This document shows, piece after piece, positions 31,734 to 64,000 of a stretch of DNA of 64,000 nt. The stretch covers positions 1 through 64,000 of the forward strand of contig CAIYJE010000178.1 of assembly GCA_903926465.1 (NCBI GenBank). Reading direction: 5' to 3'. Position 1 is the first letter of the stretch. Each line of letters begins with the position of its first letter. This DNA is from an uncultured Planctomycetales bacterium. GTDB lineage: Bacteria > Planctomycetota > Planctomycetia > Isosphaerales > Isosphaeraceae. The translations under genes were made by a program, and so were the position numbers. The notes under the pieces were generated by a model. It was not told the origin of the DNA, ran no database searches, and worked only from the letters and a program-made list of their open reading frames with translations.

Positions 31734-34172
31734 ATGAAACTGCCATTCTCGCTGGCCCTGAGCGTTGCCCTGGCGCTGGCCTTTCCTGCACCTGGCCAGC
31801 AACCTGGTGTGAACCCCGCCAGACTTGAGGTCTTTCCGCCTGATATTCAGCTCTCGGGCGTACGAGATCGGCAGCTCCTGGTGATCCAGGCCACCTACCC
31901 AGATGGCATCACGCGAGATGTCACGACCGAGGCCCAAATCAAGCTGGCGAACCCCGGCCTGGTGCGTCGCGAAGGGCCAACCTTCTGGGCAGCCGCCGAT
32001 GGTGAGACCACACTGGCTGCCGAGTTCGGCGGCCAGACCGTGACGATTCCGGTCAAGGTCAGCCAGGCTGCGGTCACTGCGCCGCTCTCGTTCCGCCTGG
32101 ATGTGATGCCGATTTTCATGCGTACCGGCTGTAACACCGGCAGTTGCCATGGCGCAGCCCGCGGCAAAGATGGGTTTCGCATCTCGCTGTTCGGCTTCGA
32201 TCCCGATGGTGATTACAACCGCATTACCCGTGAGATGGTTGGCCGCCGTGTGAATCTGGCCGTGCCCGGAGAAAGTACGCTGATCGAAAAATCGCTGGGC
32301 TCGGTACCCCACACCGGTGGTAAGCGATTTGAGGCCGGCAGCGAATATCACCAGGTGATGCTGGAGTGGATCAACGCTGGTGCGGTGAATGATGATGCCA
32401 GCAAGTTGCCCAAGGTGGTCGGGGTTGAACTTTACCCCAAAACGATCGTGCTTGATGGCCCAGGTGCCACCCAGCAGATGACGGCCCGGGCCAAATACTC
32501 TGACGGCTCAGACCGCGATGTGACTAGCCTGGCGGTCTTCCTGACCAATAACGAGACCTCTGCAAAGATTTCAGAGGGCGGTCTGATCACCGGCGCGGAG
32601 CGAGGCGAAGCCTTTGTGATGGCCCGGTTTGAGACGTTTACCGTGGGGTCTCAGGTTCTGGTGCTCCCCAAGGGACTGCAGTTTCAGTACCCAGAAGAGT
32701 CTGAGGTCAACTATGTCGACGCGATGGTGGCAACCAAGCTCAAGAAATTGCGCATGGCTCCCTCTGGCGTTTGTAGTGATGAAGACTTCCTTCGCCGCAT
32801 CTTCATTGACATTGTCGGGCTGGTCCCCACGGTCGATGAATACCAAAAATTCGTCAGCTCCACCGAGGCCGATAAGCGTTCCAAGCTGATCAACGAACTG
32901 CTGGAACGGAAAGAATTTGCCGAGATCTGGGTGAACAAGTGGGCGGAACTGCTACAGGTTCGCCAGATTCCGAACCAGATCAGCCAGAAGGGGATGTTCC
33001 TCTACTACAATTGGCTTGTGGACATGCTCCAGAAGAACACGCCAATGGACCAGTTCGTCCAGGAATTACTGGGGGCCAGCGGCGGTACCTTCTCGAACCC
33101 GGCCACCAACTTCTATCAGGTCACCAATGACCGTCTGCTGCTGACCGAGAACGTAGCTCAGGTTTTCATGGGGATGCGGATCCAGTGCGCCCAGTGTCAC
33201 AACCATCCGTTTGATCGCTGGACCATGGACGACTACTACAGTTTCTCGGCGTTCTTTGCCCAGATCGGACGGAAGCAGGGTGAAGATTACCGAGAAACGA
33301 TCGTCTTCAATGCCGGCGGTGGCGAAGCCAATCATCCGGTGGGCGGACGCGTGATGAAGCCCAAGTTCCTGGGCGGCGAGGAACCGGACACGGCTGGTAA
33401 AGATCGGCGGGCCACCGTGGCTGCCTGGGTTGGGTCAAAAGAGAATCCGTTCTTCGCGCGCAGCTTTGTCAACCGGGTCTGGGCCCACTTCTTCGGGCTG
33501 GGGATTGTGGAACCGGTGGATGACTTCCGGGTATCTAACCCGGCGTCCAACCCCGAGTTACTGGATGAGCTGGCCAAGCGATTCACCGACTCCAAGTATG
33601 ACTTGAAGCAACTGGTGCGTGAGATCTGCAACTCACACACCTATCAGCGGTCCACTCAGCGCAATGAGACCAACCAGCTCGACGAGAAGAACTTCGCCCA
33701 TGCCAACCTGCGCAGGATCAAGGCGGAGAACTTGCTGGACGTGATCAGCGAGGCCACTGACACCCGCGACAAGTTCCCTGGACTGCCGCTAGGTGCGCGG
33801 GCGGTCCAGATTGCAGACGGTGCGGTTTCGACCTACTTCCTGACCACCTTCGGCCGTGCCACCCGGGAAACGGTCTGCTCTTGCGAGGTGAAGATGGAGC
33901 CCACCCTGTCTCAGGCGCTCCACTTGCTCAACGGTGACACCGTCAACTCCAAGATCAACCAGGGCGGGGTCATCAAGAAGCTGCTCGCCGAGAAGAAGTT
34001 CCCGGAAGAGCGAATTGTCGAACTCTACGTTCGTACCCTGACTCGCATGCCAACCAAGGCCGAGGTTGATCAACTGGTCAACGTCTTGAACACGGCCCCC
34101 AATGCCGAACAGGGCCTGCTAGACATTTACTGGGCTCTGCTCAACAGTCGCGAGTTTCTGTTCAACCATTGA
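31734..34172 (+). CDS. DUF1549/DUF1553 protein with BIG-2-like domains
   Basis: An 812-residue exported protein; the ATG at 31734 gives a signal peptide ending near PAPGQQ. Ig-like BIG-2 segments (SGVRDRQLLVIQATY; then ATQQMTARAKYSDGSDRDVT) lie around GCNTGSCHGA at about residue 131, a Cys-rich site resembling a cytochrome-like motif. Then come DUF1549 (FLRRIFIDIVGLVPT onward), the haem-type CAQCHNHPFDRW (about residue 484), and DUF1553 (FARSFVNRVWAHFFGLGIVEP). These domains are a planctomycete hallmark, usually encoded beside DUF1501. Function unknown; CxxCH implies haem attachment outside the cytoplasm. Confidence 0.88.
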   Translation: MKLPFSLALSVALALAFPAPGQQPGVNPARLEVFPPDIQLSGVRDRQLLVIQATYPDGITRDVTTEAQIKLANPGLVRREGPTFWAAADGETTLAAEFGGQTVTIPVKVSQAAVTAPLSFRLDVMPIFMRTGCNTGSCHGAARGKDGFRISLFGFDPDGDYNRITREMVGRRVNLAVPGESTLIEKSLGSVPHTGGKRFEAGSEYHQVMLEWINAGAVNDDASKLPKVVGVELYPKTIVLDGPGATQQMTARAKYSDGSDRDVTSLAVFLTNNETSAKISEGGLITGAERGEAFVMARFETFTVGSQVLVLPKGLQFQYPEESEVNYVDAMVATKLKKLRMAPSGVCSDEDFLRRIFIDIVGLVPTVDEYQKFVSSTEADKRSKLINELLERKEFAEIWVNKWAELLQVRQIPNQISQKGMFLYYNWLVDMLQKNTPMDQFVQELLGASGGTFSNPATNFYQVTNDRLLLTENVAQVFMGMRIQCAQCHNHPFDRWTMDDYYSFSAFFAQIGRKQGEDYRETIVFNAGGGEANHPVGGRVMKPKFLGGEEPDTAGKDRRATVAAWVGSKENPFFARSFVNRVWAHFFGLGIVEPVDDFRVSNPASNPELLDELAKRFTDSKYDLKQLVREICNSHTYQRSTQRNETNQLDEKNFAHANLRRIKAENLLDVISEATDTRDKFPGLPLGARAVQIADGAVSTYFLTTFGRATRETVCSCEVKMEPTLSQALHLLNGDTVNSKINQGGVIKKLLAEKKFPEERIVELYVRTLTRMPTKAEVDQLVNVLNTAPNAEQGLLDIYWALLNSREFLFNH

Positions 34173-61185: not shown

Positions 61186-62478
61186 TCACTCACTGTCCCC
61201 CAGTGAGAGGGCCAGTTTTTCTAGGTCGGCATTGGCCTGGGTGCGAACCTCGGCAAGTGCGCGCTGGGTGGCCGCGCCAATCAGCAGGGCACGCTGCTTC
61301 ATCTCGCCATTGATCTGCCCCAACCCCAGCCCATCCACCATTTCGAAGATCTTCTTGATCTGGGGATCGGCCTCAAGGTTGCCTGCGGCGTTGGCGGCAA
61401 GCTGGGCGGTGGTGACCTGAGCGGTACGTCGGCCGGCCGATTGCCAGGAATCGGGATTGGGGCCCACATTCACCCAGAATTCGGACGTGACCTCGACCCC
61501 ACTCAGATCCTCGGCCGTTTTCAGTGTGGTGATCACCGCCCCCATGCGACCGGTACCGGCCAGAGTTTTCAAGCGTTCTGCCAGCGGGTCCTTCTGCGCC
61601 TGCTGCGGCTTCTGCGCCAGCGAATCATCACCGGTGAGTTCGCGGAGCAAGCGGCCGATATCGCCAAGCCCACCAGCCCCACCAAGGCCGCCGGCCAGAC
61701 CCGAAAGACCACCAAGACCACCCAGTCCTCCGAGCGCATTCATATCCATGGCCTGGCCGGTCCCACCATCGGGGATCAGCATCGAGCCGTGCCGAACGAA
61801 CCAGCCGGCCCGTTCGGTTTTGACCTCTGTCGCCGCACGCTGGAGCCGCCACTGGGGTTCGGTTTGCAGGGGCAGCGGGAGCAGATGGTCAATGGTCACC
61901 GGTTCGTCCCCCTGAACGGGGAAGTTCCGGCCTTCCAGAGCCCCCTTCAAGTCGGCTGGCTGCATGGTCTCGCCCTCACCAAAACCAGCACGCCAGCCCA
62001 GCCTGAGCATGCGGAGATTGGCGGCGCTGGCTCGTTCTACCCGGGCCACCTCCTTGCGATCGAGCGGCACCATCATCAGCCGGGCAGGGCGGTTTGCGTC
62101 CGGCCCACTCAGCCGCTCCACTTCCCCCTGAATCGATTTCAAGAGGGAGTCATTCGCTTCAACCCCAGCCGCTTTCGAACGATCTTGGCTCCAGACCTTG
62201 AGCCTGACCAACCGCTCGGTGGTGGCCTGACGGGAATAAGGCGCCTCAAACCTTTCCCATGCTTTGGCATGTTCCGGCAAATTCTTTTCCGCCCAGTCTC
62301 GACGTACAATGAACACCAGCTTGCCACGGTCGGACGGGTTGAAAACCTCACCCAGAATCACGGTGCCGTCCTTCATGGTCACACGATCGGCCACGCCGGT
62401 TGTGATCAGCGGTTTCGCAGGCTTCTGAGGCGCCAGGGTAACCGCCAGCAGTAGCCCCGCGATCGTCACGTTCACCAT
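61186..62478 (-). CDS. Secreted Gly-rich protein of unknown function
   Basis: A 430-residue exported protein: VNVTIAGLLLAVTLA is a signal-like segment at the N-terminus. The first 170 residues (TMKDGTVILGEVFN and so on) may form a small beta-rich domain. A Gly/Leu-rich low-complexity stretch (repeats of GGLGGL, about residues 243-274) separates it from a helical C-terminal part. No catalytic motif is recognised. The ATG at 62478 has AGGAG 7 nt upstream; the longer frame from 62610 is not favoured. It is divergent from the AhpD-like gene, with about 160 bases between them. Confidence 0.6.
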   Translation of the reverse strand: MVNVTIAGLLLAVTLAPQKPAKPLITTGVADRVTMKDGTVILGEVFNPSDRGKLVFIVRRDWAEKNLPEHAKAWERFEAPYSRQATTERLVRLKVWSQDRSKAAGVEANDSLLKSIQGEVERLSGPDANRPARLMMVPLDRKEVARVERASAANLRMLRLGWRAGFGEGETMQPADLKGALEGRNFPVQGDEPVTIDHLLPLPLQTEPQWRLQRAATEVKTERAGWFVRHGSMLIPDGGTGQAMDMNALGGLGGLGGLSGLAGGLGGAGGLGDIGRLLRELTGDDSLAQKPQQAQKDPLAERLKTLAGTGRMGAVITTLKTAEDLSGVEVTSEFWVNVGPNPDSWQSAGRRTAQVTTAQLAANAAGNLEADPQIKKIFEMVDGLGLGQINGEMKQRALLIGAATQRALAEVRTQANADLEKLALSLGDSE

Positions 62479-62636
62479 GAAAGCGCTCCTGCAATGGGAG
62501 ACGTACGGCAAAGCCTGTCCATGTTCAGTTACTGACCGATACGATAGACGTGGGCGAACCGGACGCCTGGACCCGGATCTTTTTTGAAGGATACCGGTTT
62601 CCCGTTTCAATTATTCTACCGCAGAGGACCACGCCG

Positions 62637-63266
62637 ATGGCACGAATCCGCTGGATCCCTGAAACCGAAGCTAGCGGCGAGTCGGCTCAGGTCTACGCTG
62701 ACTGGTTTCAGAACAATCCAGGGCGACCGCGCGTTCCAGACATCCTCAAGTGTTTCAGCCTCAGGCCCGACTTTTTCCAGGATGTGGTTGGCTTCTCGAA
62801 CCGGGTCCACTTTTCAGACGGTCATCTGACCCGGCGCCTCAAGGAAATGATTGCCACCTACGTCTCTGGCCTCAACCATTGCCCGTACTGAACTGGCTCG
62901 CACGCCTTCTTCCTGCAGTTGCAGGAACCCGATGCGCTGGTTCAACAGGCCCTGGCCCAGGGAAATCTGGATGCCGCCCCGCTTGATAACGCCGAACGCG
63001 GACTCATGGAGTTCGTCAGGCTCGTCACCCTGCACGCCTACAAAACCACCGATGACGACGTTCAGCGTCTCAAAGAACTCGGCTGGACCGATCCCCAGCT
63101 TGCCGAATGCGTGTACATTACCGCCCTCTTCGCCTTCTTCAACCGCGTGGCAGACGCCTTCGGCCTGGAAGACCCCAACTACTTCAAAAGCCCGCCCGTG
63201 CCAGGTTCCAGCGCGTCAACCCCCGGAGATGACTCTGACCCAACCTGCAGGGGTAGCCGCTCATGA
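62637..63266 (+). CDS. AhpD-like (carboxymuconolactone-decarboxylase fold) protein, probable selenoprotein
   Basis: A 209-residue reading frame if codon 85 (TGA, 62889-62891) is decoded. The family is that of AhpD-like peroxidase-related proteins: N-terminal ARIRWIPETEASGE, SLRPDFFQDV, TRRLKEMIATYVSGLNHCPY, then TGSHAFFLQ, DDDVQRLKELGWTD and FNRVADAFG. In the family the site reads C-x-x-C-x3-H. Here C82 and H89 are kept and the second cysteine position is UGA, giving CPY-U-TGSH. No other disruption occurs, and the end overlaps pxpB as ATGA. GAGGA precedes the ATG at 8 nt. I interpret UGA as selenocysteine. Without decoding, the product is an 84-residue fragment lacking half the redox pair. 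Confidence 0.75.
62910..62927 (+). promoter_or_regulatory. Candidate bacterial SECIS stem-loop
   Basis: TTCCTG-CAGTTG-CAGGAA: 6 bp minimum stem with a G/U-containing loop (8 bp with a GT loop if fully paired). The loop G lies 26 nt after the UGA at 62889-62891, within the 16-37 nt range usual for bacterial SECIS apical loops. It is inside the coding sequence, as expected. Confidence 0.55.
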
Positions 63267-63937
63267 CACAGCTTGCACCGTTGGGAGAATTCGCATGGCT
63301 GGCGAGGTTTTCAACCGAAGTGGCAGCACAGGCCTGGGCGAGCGCGGCCCGCACAGCCCTGGAAGCCCAGCCCGCGGCATTTGATGTGGTTCTGGCCTAT
63401 CAGTCCGTCGCCGTGTTTGCGGATAGCCCTGGCTGCCATCCGGAAACGATCGAAAAACTGCTGCGCATATTGACACCGGCCAAGCTGGATCATGAACCAG
63501 GACCATTGATCCCAGTGCCGGTGCTCTATGATGGGGACGACCTCCCAGACGCGGCCATCCACCTGGGCTGCTCGGTTCAAGAGTTGATTGCGTGGCACAG
63601 CCAGCCCATTTACACGGTTTACGCGGTGGGCTTTTTACCAGGGTTTCCCTACTGCGGATACCTGAGCGATGCCCTGGCGGGGCTTCCCAGGCGAGCCCAA
63701 CCGCGAACCCGCGTTCCCGCCGGTTCCGTGGCCATTGCAGGGCGCCAGACCGGCATTTATCCCCAAGACTCGCCAGGCGGCTGGCACCTGCTGGGCAGGA
63801 CGCCGCTCACCATTGTGGATCTGGCCGAAACGTTCTTCCCAATCCGGGCCGGCGACCGAATCCAGTTCCAGCCGATCAATGCCGCGGAATTCGCGCAGCT
63901 CCACGGCCAGCGATTGCAGGTCAACCGACCTTGCTAA
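63263..63937 (+). CDS. pxpB: 5-oxoprolinase subunit B
   Basis: Part of the ATP-dependent 5-oxoprolinase PxpABC, which opens 5-oxoproline to glutamate. The 224-residue protein matches the KipI/allophanate-hydrolase-subunit-1 family: YTVYAVGFLPGFPYCGYL, PRTRVPAGSVAIAGRQTGIYP, SPGGWHLLGRTPL. The ATG at 63263 overlaps the stop of the AhpD-like gene by four bases (ATGA). pxpA follows 23 bases later; pxpC is presumably beyond the window. Confidence 0.88.
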   Translation: MTQLAPLGEFAWLARFSTEVAAQAWASAARTALEAQPAAFDVVLAYQSVAVFADSPGCHPETIEKLLRILTPAKLDHEPGPLIPVPVLYDGDDLPDAAIHLGCSVQELIAWHSQPIYTVYAVGFLPGFPYCGYLSDALAGLPRRAQPRTRVPAGSVAIAGRQTGIYPQDSPGGWHLLGRTPLTIVDLAETFFPIRAGDRIQFQPINAAEFAQLHGQRLQVNRPC

Positions 63938-63960: not shown

Positions 63961-64000
63961 ATGGAATTGCGAATGGATCTGAACGCGGATCTGGGTGAAG
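63961..64000 (+). CDS. pxpA: 5-oxoprolinase subunit A (LamB/YcsF family), partial
   Basis: Only the first 13 codons are in the window: MELRMDLNADLGE matches the highly conserved N-terminus of the LamB/YcsF family (DLNxDLGE). AGGA lies 7 nt before the ATG. Its position right after pxpB supports the name. The gene continues past 64000. Confidence 0.8.
   Translation, partial: MELRMDLNADLGE

Follow-up and report, generated by a model that had tools for sequence, protein, structure and literature searches.

A single TGA interrupts an otherwise open frame in the 64,000-nucleotide stretch of planctomycete DNA analysed here (the window), and the question it raises is whether the gene is broken at this codon or encodes selenocysteine (Sec) there. 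The frame starts at an ATG at position 62637 on the + strand, contains its only in-frame TGA at 62889-62891 (codon 85), stays open for a further 124 codons in the same frame and terminates in a TGA at 63264-63266. The gene accordingly occupies 62637..63266 (+), and its coding part without the terminal stop 62637-63263 (+), or 209 codons. By the sequence evidence it most probably encodes a selenoprotein of the AhpD-like/TIGR01926 "peroxidase-related" family (a probability of about 95%), with Sec as the predicted residue 85 of 209. The initial annotation had placed the TGA at the second cysteine of a C-x-x-C-x3-H active site, with 124 codons continuing in frame and overlapping pxpB. Both observations stand: the site reads C82-P-Y-U85-T-G-S-H89, and the stop codon and the pxpB start (ATG at 63263) share the sequence ATGA. 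An open stretch of 124 codons has a likelihood of ~1% by chance at 57% GC, and is by itself weak to middling proof of a real frame. (Genes of this form are split by annotation pipelines or labelled as pseudogenes.)

Read through the TGA, the protein is a member of TIGR01926 (92.1 bits against a curated cut-off of 81.8); it also matches the Pfam CMD domain (44 bits, cut-off 23), in an alignment that spans the TGA, and the AhpD core domain. The AhpD-type active-site segment is encoded at 62844..62903 (+) and extends from E70 through C82-P-Y84-U85-T-G-S to H89. E70, C82, Y84 and H89 are invariant among 20 homologues, and U85 takes the second redox position of C-P-Y-U, four residues ahead of H89. 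The relay residues of AhpD (Glu, Cys, His/Tyr, Cys/Sec and His) are thus all present at the spacing of the family, which is also that of Glu36, Cys48, Tyr50, Cys51 and His55 in PA0269 (PMC3141380). Mycobacterium tuberculosis AhpD (1gu9) shares the Glu-Cys-X-X-Cys-X3-His relay with equal spacing (PMC3141380), but its overall similarity is very low; its His132 corresponds to Tyr84 and its second Cys to Sec here. NF041238 (AhpD_rel_CFYUT, alkylhydroperoxidase-related (seleno)protein) was weighed as an alternative assignment and discarded on score: its C-terminal half is homologous and carries C-x-Y-U, but the family is 357 positions long and the planctomycete protein scores 56.6 bits, below its cut-off of 175.

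Insertion of Sec requires dedicated machinery, and the initial annotation had proposed a search of the genome for selA, selB, selD and tRNA-Sec. All four are found in the source genome, a draft in 207 contigs with a size of 6.9 Mb and a completeness of 99.7%: selA (508 bits) and selB (353 bits) adjoin on one contig (C111), selD scores 353 bits, and tRNA-Sec scores 64 bits and has the anticodon TCA. The selD gene of this genome (L017, G000:C159:16444-17373) itself reads CAG-U-AGKL across an in-frame TGA; its product, selenophosphate synthetase, thus belongs among the selenoproteins, as it does in many bacteria.

The TGA is conserved. Eleven genomes besides the source, among 59 searched, carry an orthologue with 53-74% identity, and all 11 have TGA at the same codon. 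Three more TGA-containing orthologues come from a separate metagenome-assembled genome (MAG; L023) and from two genomes elsewhere in the phylum (G399 and G120), so that codon 85 is TGA in the orthologues of 14 other planctomycete genomes (13 of 13 among the aligned orthologues). Orthologues with TGC at this position, 52-55% identical, are found in three genomes that are 98-100% complete (G305, G338 and G379), where they form one uninterrupted protein. tRNA-Sec was not found in these three; their best matches (44-46 bits) fall short of the gathering score of 47 and resemble in score the ordinary Ser and Leu tRNAs of the source genome. TGA-bearing genomes, in contrast, have tRNA-Sec in 14 of 14 tested cases, G399 and G120 included. 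(The corresponding p-values, hypergeometric 2e-4 for tRNA-Sec in 12/12 orthologue-bearing genomes vs 32/59 overall and Fisher 0.0015 for TGA with tRNA-Sec (14) vs TGC without it (3), overstate independence, the counted genomes being related.) The alignment of close relatives that the initial annotation had called for therefore has UGA where the Sec machinery is present and Cys where it is absent. Across orthologues, pN/pS is 0.33 before the TGA, 0.45 after it and 0.42 in the core; the value after the TGA implies protein-level selection on the downstream half as well, and both sides lie below 0.5. Because the TGA is kept at the same codon in 14 other genomes and is followed by sequence under protein-level selection, the interrupted frame is, as judged from these comparisons, not a chance occurrence.

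The Sec codon varies further among more distant homologues. One of these (L061 in G103, about 1808-1810, - strand) carries GGG (Gly) in place of the Sec codon, next to an intact SECIS-like hairpin and in a genome that is positive for tRNA-Sec, possibly a recent Sec-to-Gly loss; the Sec residue is therefore not indispensable everywhere. Relatives in the same family also contain a second group of AhpD-like selenoproteins (L038-L042, L044-L052), with the motif C-H/K-Y-U-I-x-SH, ~33% identity to the CPYU protein and a hairpin of its own (ACGCAGA-GUU-UCUGCGU, loop ~17 nt after the UGA). In a single genus this second group has TGA in one genome (G028), TGC in another that is without selA and tRNA-Sec (G036), and TGC in a third that has kept both (G013). 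The homologue tree, which bears on whether Sec or Cys is ancestral, has many open forks.

Sec insertion in bacteria also depends on a hairpin (SECIS) downstream of the UGA. The initial annotation had named no such element; a conserved hairpin is found here, as the selenoprotein reading predicts. The predicted bacterial SECIS, UUCCUGC-AGUU-GCAGGAA, lies at 62910..62927 (+). A bacterial SECIS model specifies a loop of 3-9 nt, a stem of 4-16 bp, G in the first two loop positions, a spacing of 16-37 nt and a minimum free energy (MFE) of at most -7.5 kcal/mol (PMC13188914); the hairpin conforms to it, with its 4-nt RGUY loop 25 nt after the UGA, a stem of 6-7 bp and an MFE of -9.7 kcal/mol for its 18 nt (0 of 200 shuffled sequences are as stable). 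The element of E. coli fdhF, with GGUC between UGCA arms, has the same RGUY form (a search with its sequence finds it in 5,368 of 5,426 E. coli genomes). The form UUCCUGC-RGUY-GCAGG follows the TGA in all 13 aligned orthologues (with UUUCUGC in one), and codons +5 to +14 show about two-fold less synonymous change than the rest (0.29-0.32 vs 0.60-0.88). The stem is almost invariant. Covariation is confined to the loop-flanking pair, which is A and U in nine of the 13 orthologues and G and C in the other four, and covariation adds just -0.2 kcal/mol in RNAalifold. Since this exchange falls within codons, Gln-Leu in the protein becomes Arg-Ser at the same time, which indicates that the RNA hairpin constrains the protein sequence that follows the active site. 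An Rfam scan of the window returned tRNA-Gly only and no SECIS family. Scanning the window for a TGA followed by an RGUY hairpin gives ten matches, of which three (32003 +, 39115 - and 62889 +) are flanked on each side by no fewer than 25 open codons; the sites at 32003 and 39115 are possibly chance matches.

These observations bear on the other ways in which the interruption might arise. A nonsense mutation, or a TGC misread as TGA, can be entertained on the grounds that a one-base difference suffices and that the source genome is a draft assembly; either origin is exceedingly improbable, since a TGA that recurs across genera in the orthologues of 14 other genomes, with purifying selection downstream, would call for one error common to all or for 15 separate pseudogenes, neither of which is credible. 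The apparently interrupted gene is almost certainly intact. Two genes, the second starting from the TTG at 62919, or termination at the UGA with reinitiation, might be imagined because a 115-aa ORF with a TTG start does exist after the TGA. Such a division, however, would cut apart the E-C-x-Y-C/U-x3-H site together with its pair of helices. The hairpin is located within coding sequence and has conserved synonymous sites, and the Cys orthologues form one continuous protein; there is hardly any likelihood of two genes or of reinitiation. Reading of the UGA as some other amino acid, for example Cys or Trp, by a near-cognate tRNA or through a changed code, would have to be reconciled with the use of UGA as the stop of this very gene and of many orthologues; tRNA-Sec(UCA) is present, TGA tracks tRNA-Sec across genomes and the SECIS hairpin is conserved, and this reading, too, is very improbable. 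The Sec machinery, the UGA/Cys pattern and the conserved hairpin support instead the proposal of the initial annotation, a probable AhpD-like selenoprotein with CPYU. Ribosomes would read the UGA at 62889-62891 (+), the predicted Sec codon at the second redox position of CPYU, as selenocysteine by means of SelB, tRNA-Sec and the hairpin just downstream; actual Sec insertion at this codon is predicted from the TGA/TGC pattern and the other sequence comparisons.

The predicted structure of the protein matches the AhpD-like all-helical fold. The best AlphaFold2 model has a mean pLDDT of 80.5, with a low-confidence tail starting at residue 184 (the five models range from 58 to 80.5, from an input alignment of four sequences). 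Its best match in the PDB is 6k40, the AhpD-like DR1765 of Deinococcus radiodurans (TM 0.76/0.84), and the best solved matches (6k40, 2prr, 3c1l, 2oyo and 2pfx; TM 0.73-0.76 by query) are also found by sequence. These proteins share the fold, the active-site helix pair and the E-C-x-Y-C-x3-H pattern; they differ in having Cys in place of Sec, and are ~25% identical. The protein would be an all-helical AhpD-like subunit, probably oligomeric, in which C82 and U85 would form a redox pair under the tuning influence of E70, Y84 and H89, with U85 as its nucleophile. From the fold, the relay spacing, the invariant residues and the DR1765 data we infer that U85, beside H89, attacks and that C82 resolves. 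The reaction would most likely be peroxide reduction, or electron transfer to a peroxidase partner, in a catalytic cycle that may pass through a selenenylsulfide resolved by a thiol reductant.

The selenoprotein gene appears to stand first in an operon with the 5-oxoprolinase genes pxpB-pxpA-pxpC, and would be co-transcribed with them. pxpB (5-oxoprolinase subunit, CT_C_D domain) is at 63263..63937 (+); pxpA (LamB/YcsF) starts at 63961 (63961..64000, +), runs past the end of the window; pxpC (CT_A_B; L062) comes next. Nine genomes have pxpB downstream of the orthologue and in the same orientation; the two genes mostly overlap or are no more than a few tens of bases apart, and at one locus (L033) the gap is larger, with space for another frame. 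In the remaining orthologues, Sec or Cys, pxp linkage was not seen within the flanks examined. A divergent gene at 61186-62610 (-), of up to 474 codons and with no Pfam match, precedes the selenoprotein gene, and the same gene is conserved upstream of the orthologue in most pxp-linked genomes.

What the protein does is less securely assigned than what it is. By analogy with its relatives, a peroxidase or thiol-redox role is probable. DR1765, the closest solved relative with genetic data, is tied to H2O2 resistance through its CxxC: loss of the gene makes cells sensitive to H2O2, and versions with a mutated CxxC complement it poorly (PMC8945050). Alternatively, the selenoprotein might work as a dehalogenase or disulfide reductase, or on a metabolite connected with the breakdown of 5-oxoproline. 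The AhpD-like fold includes the debrominase Bmp8, PA0269 with its C-x-Y-C site has only weak activity on H2O2 (PMC3141380), and pxpBAC follows the gene, with pxpB next to it in nine genomes. Given DR1765, and the restriction of pxp linkage to part of the family's orthologues, a non-peroxidase function is somewhat unlikely. That the Sec-dependent enzyme is functionally part of a planctomycete pxpBAC operon is doubtful; the gene order is a lead, a hint at physiological role and not proof of shared function.

AhpD-like selenoproteins with CxxU were described in 2005 (PMC1088965), abound in marine metagenomes (PMC2398784) and have an entry in a 2026 review ("AhpD-like protein, TIGR01926, CxxU"; PMC13188914), in agreement with the initial annotation; the planctomycete gene is therefore one more case of an established type of protein rather than a new type. 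It shares with them the family model, Sec at the second CxxC position and a downstream bacterial SECIS, and differs in its planctomycete lineage, its CPYUTGSH sequence and its placement before pxpBAC. Selenoproteins have been reported from other planctomycetes (PMC4807772). No description of the pxpBAC placement or of the planctomycete Sec/Cys contrast was found in the open-licence papers searched.

The gene adds a well-supported selenoprotein lineage, and its natural Sec/Cys pairs (TGA with tRNA-Sec, TGC without) are suited to asking why AhpD-like enzymes keep Sec. The pxpBAC gene order offers a lead to the role of a family whose role is mostly unknown: if the functional link is real, oxidative state or selenium supply would be coupled to the use of 5-oxoproline, or the enzyme would act on a metabolite of the pathway.
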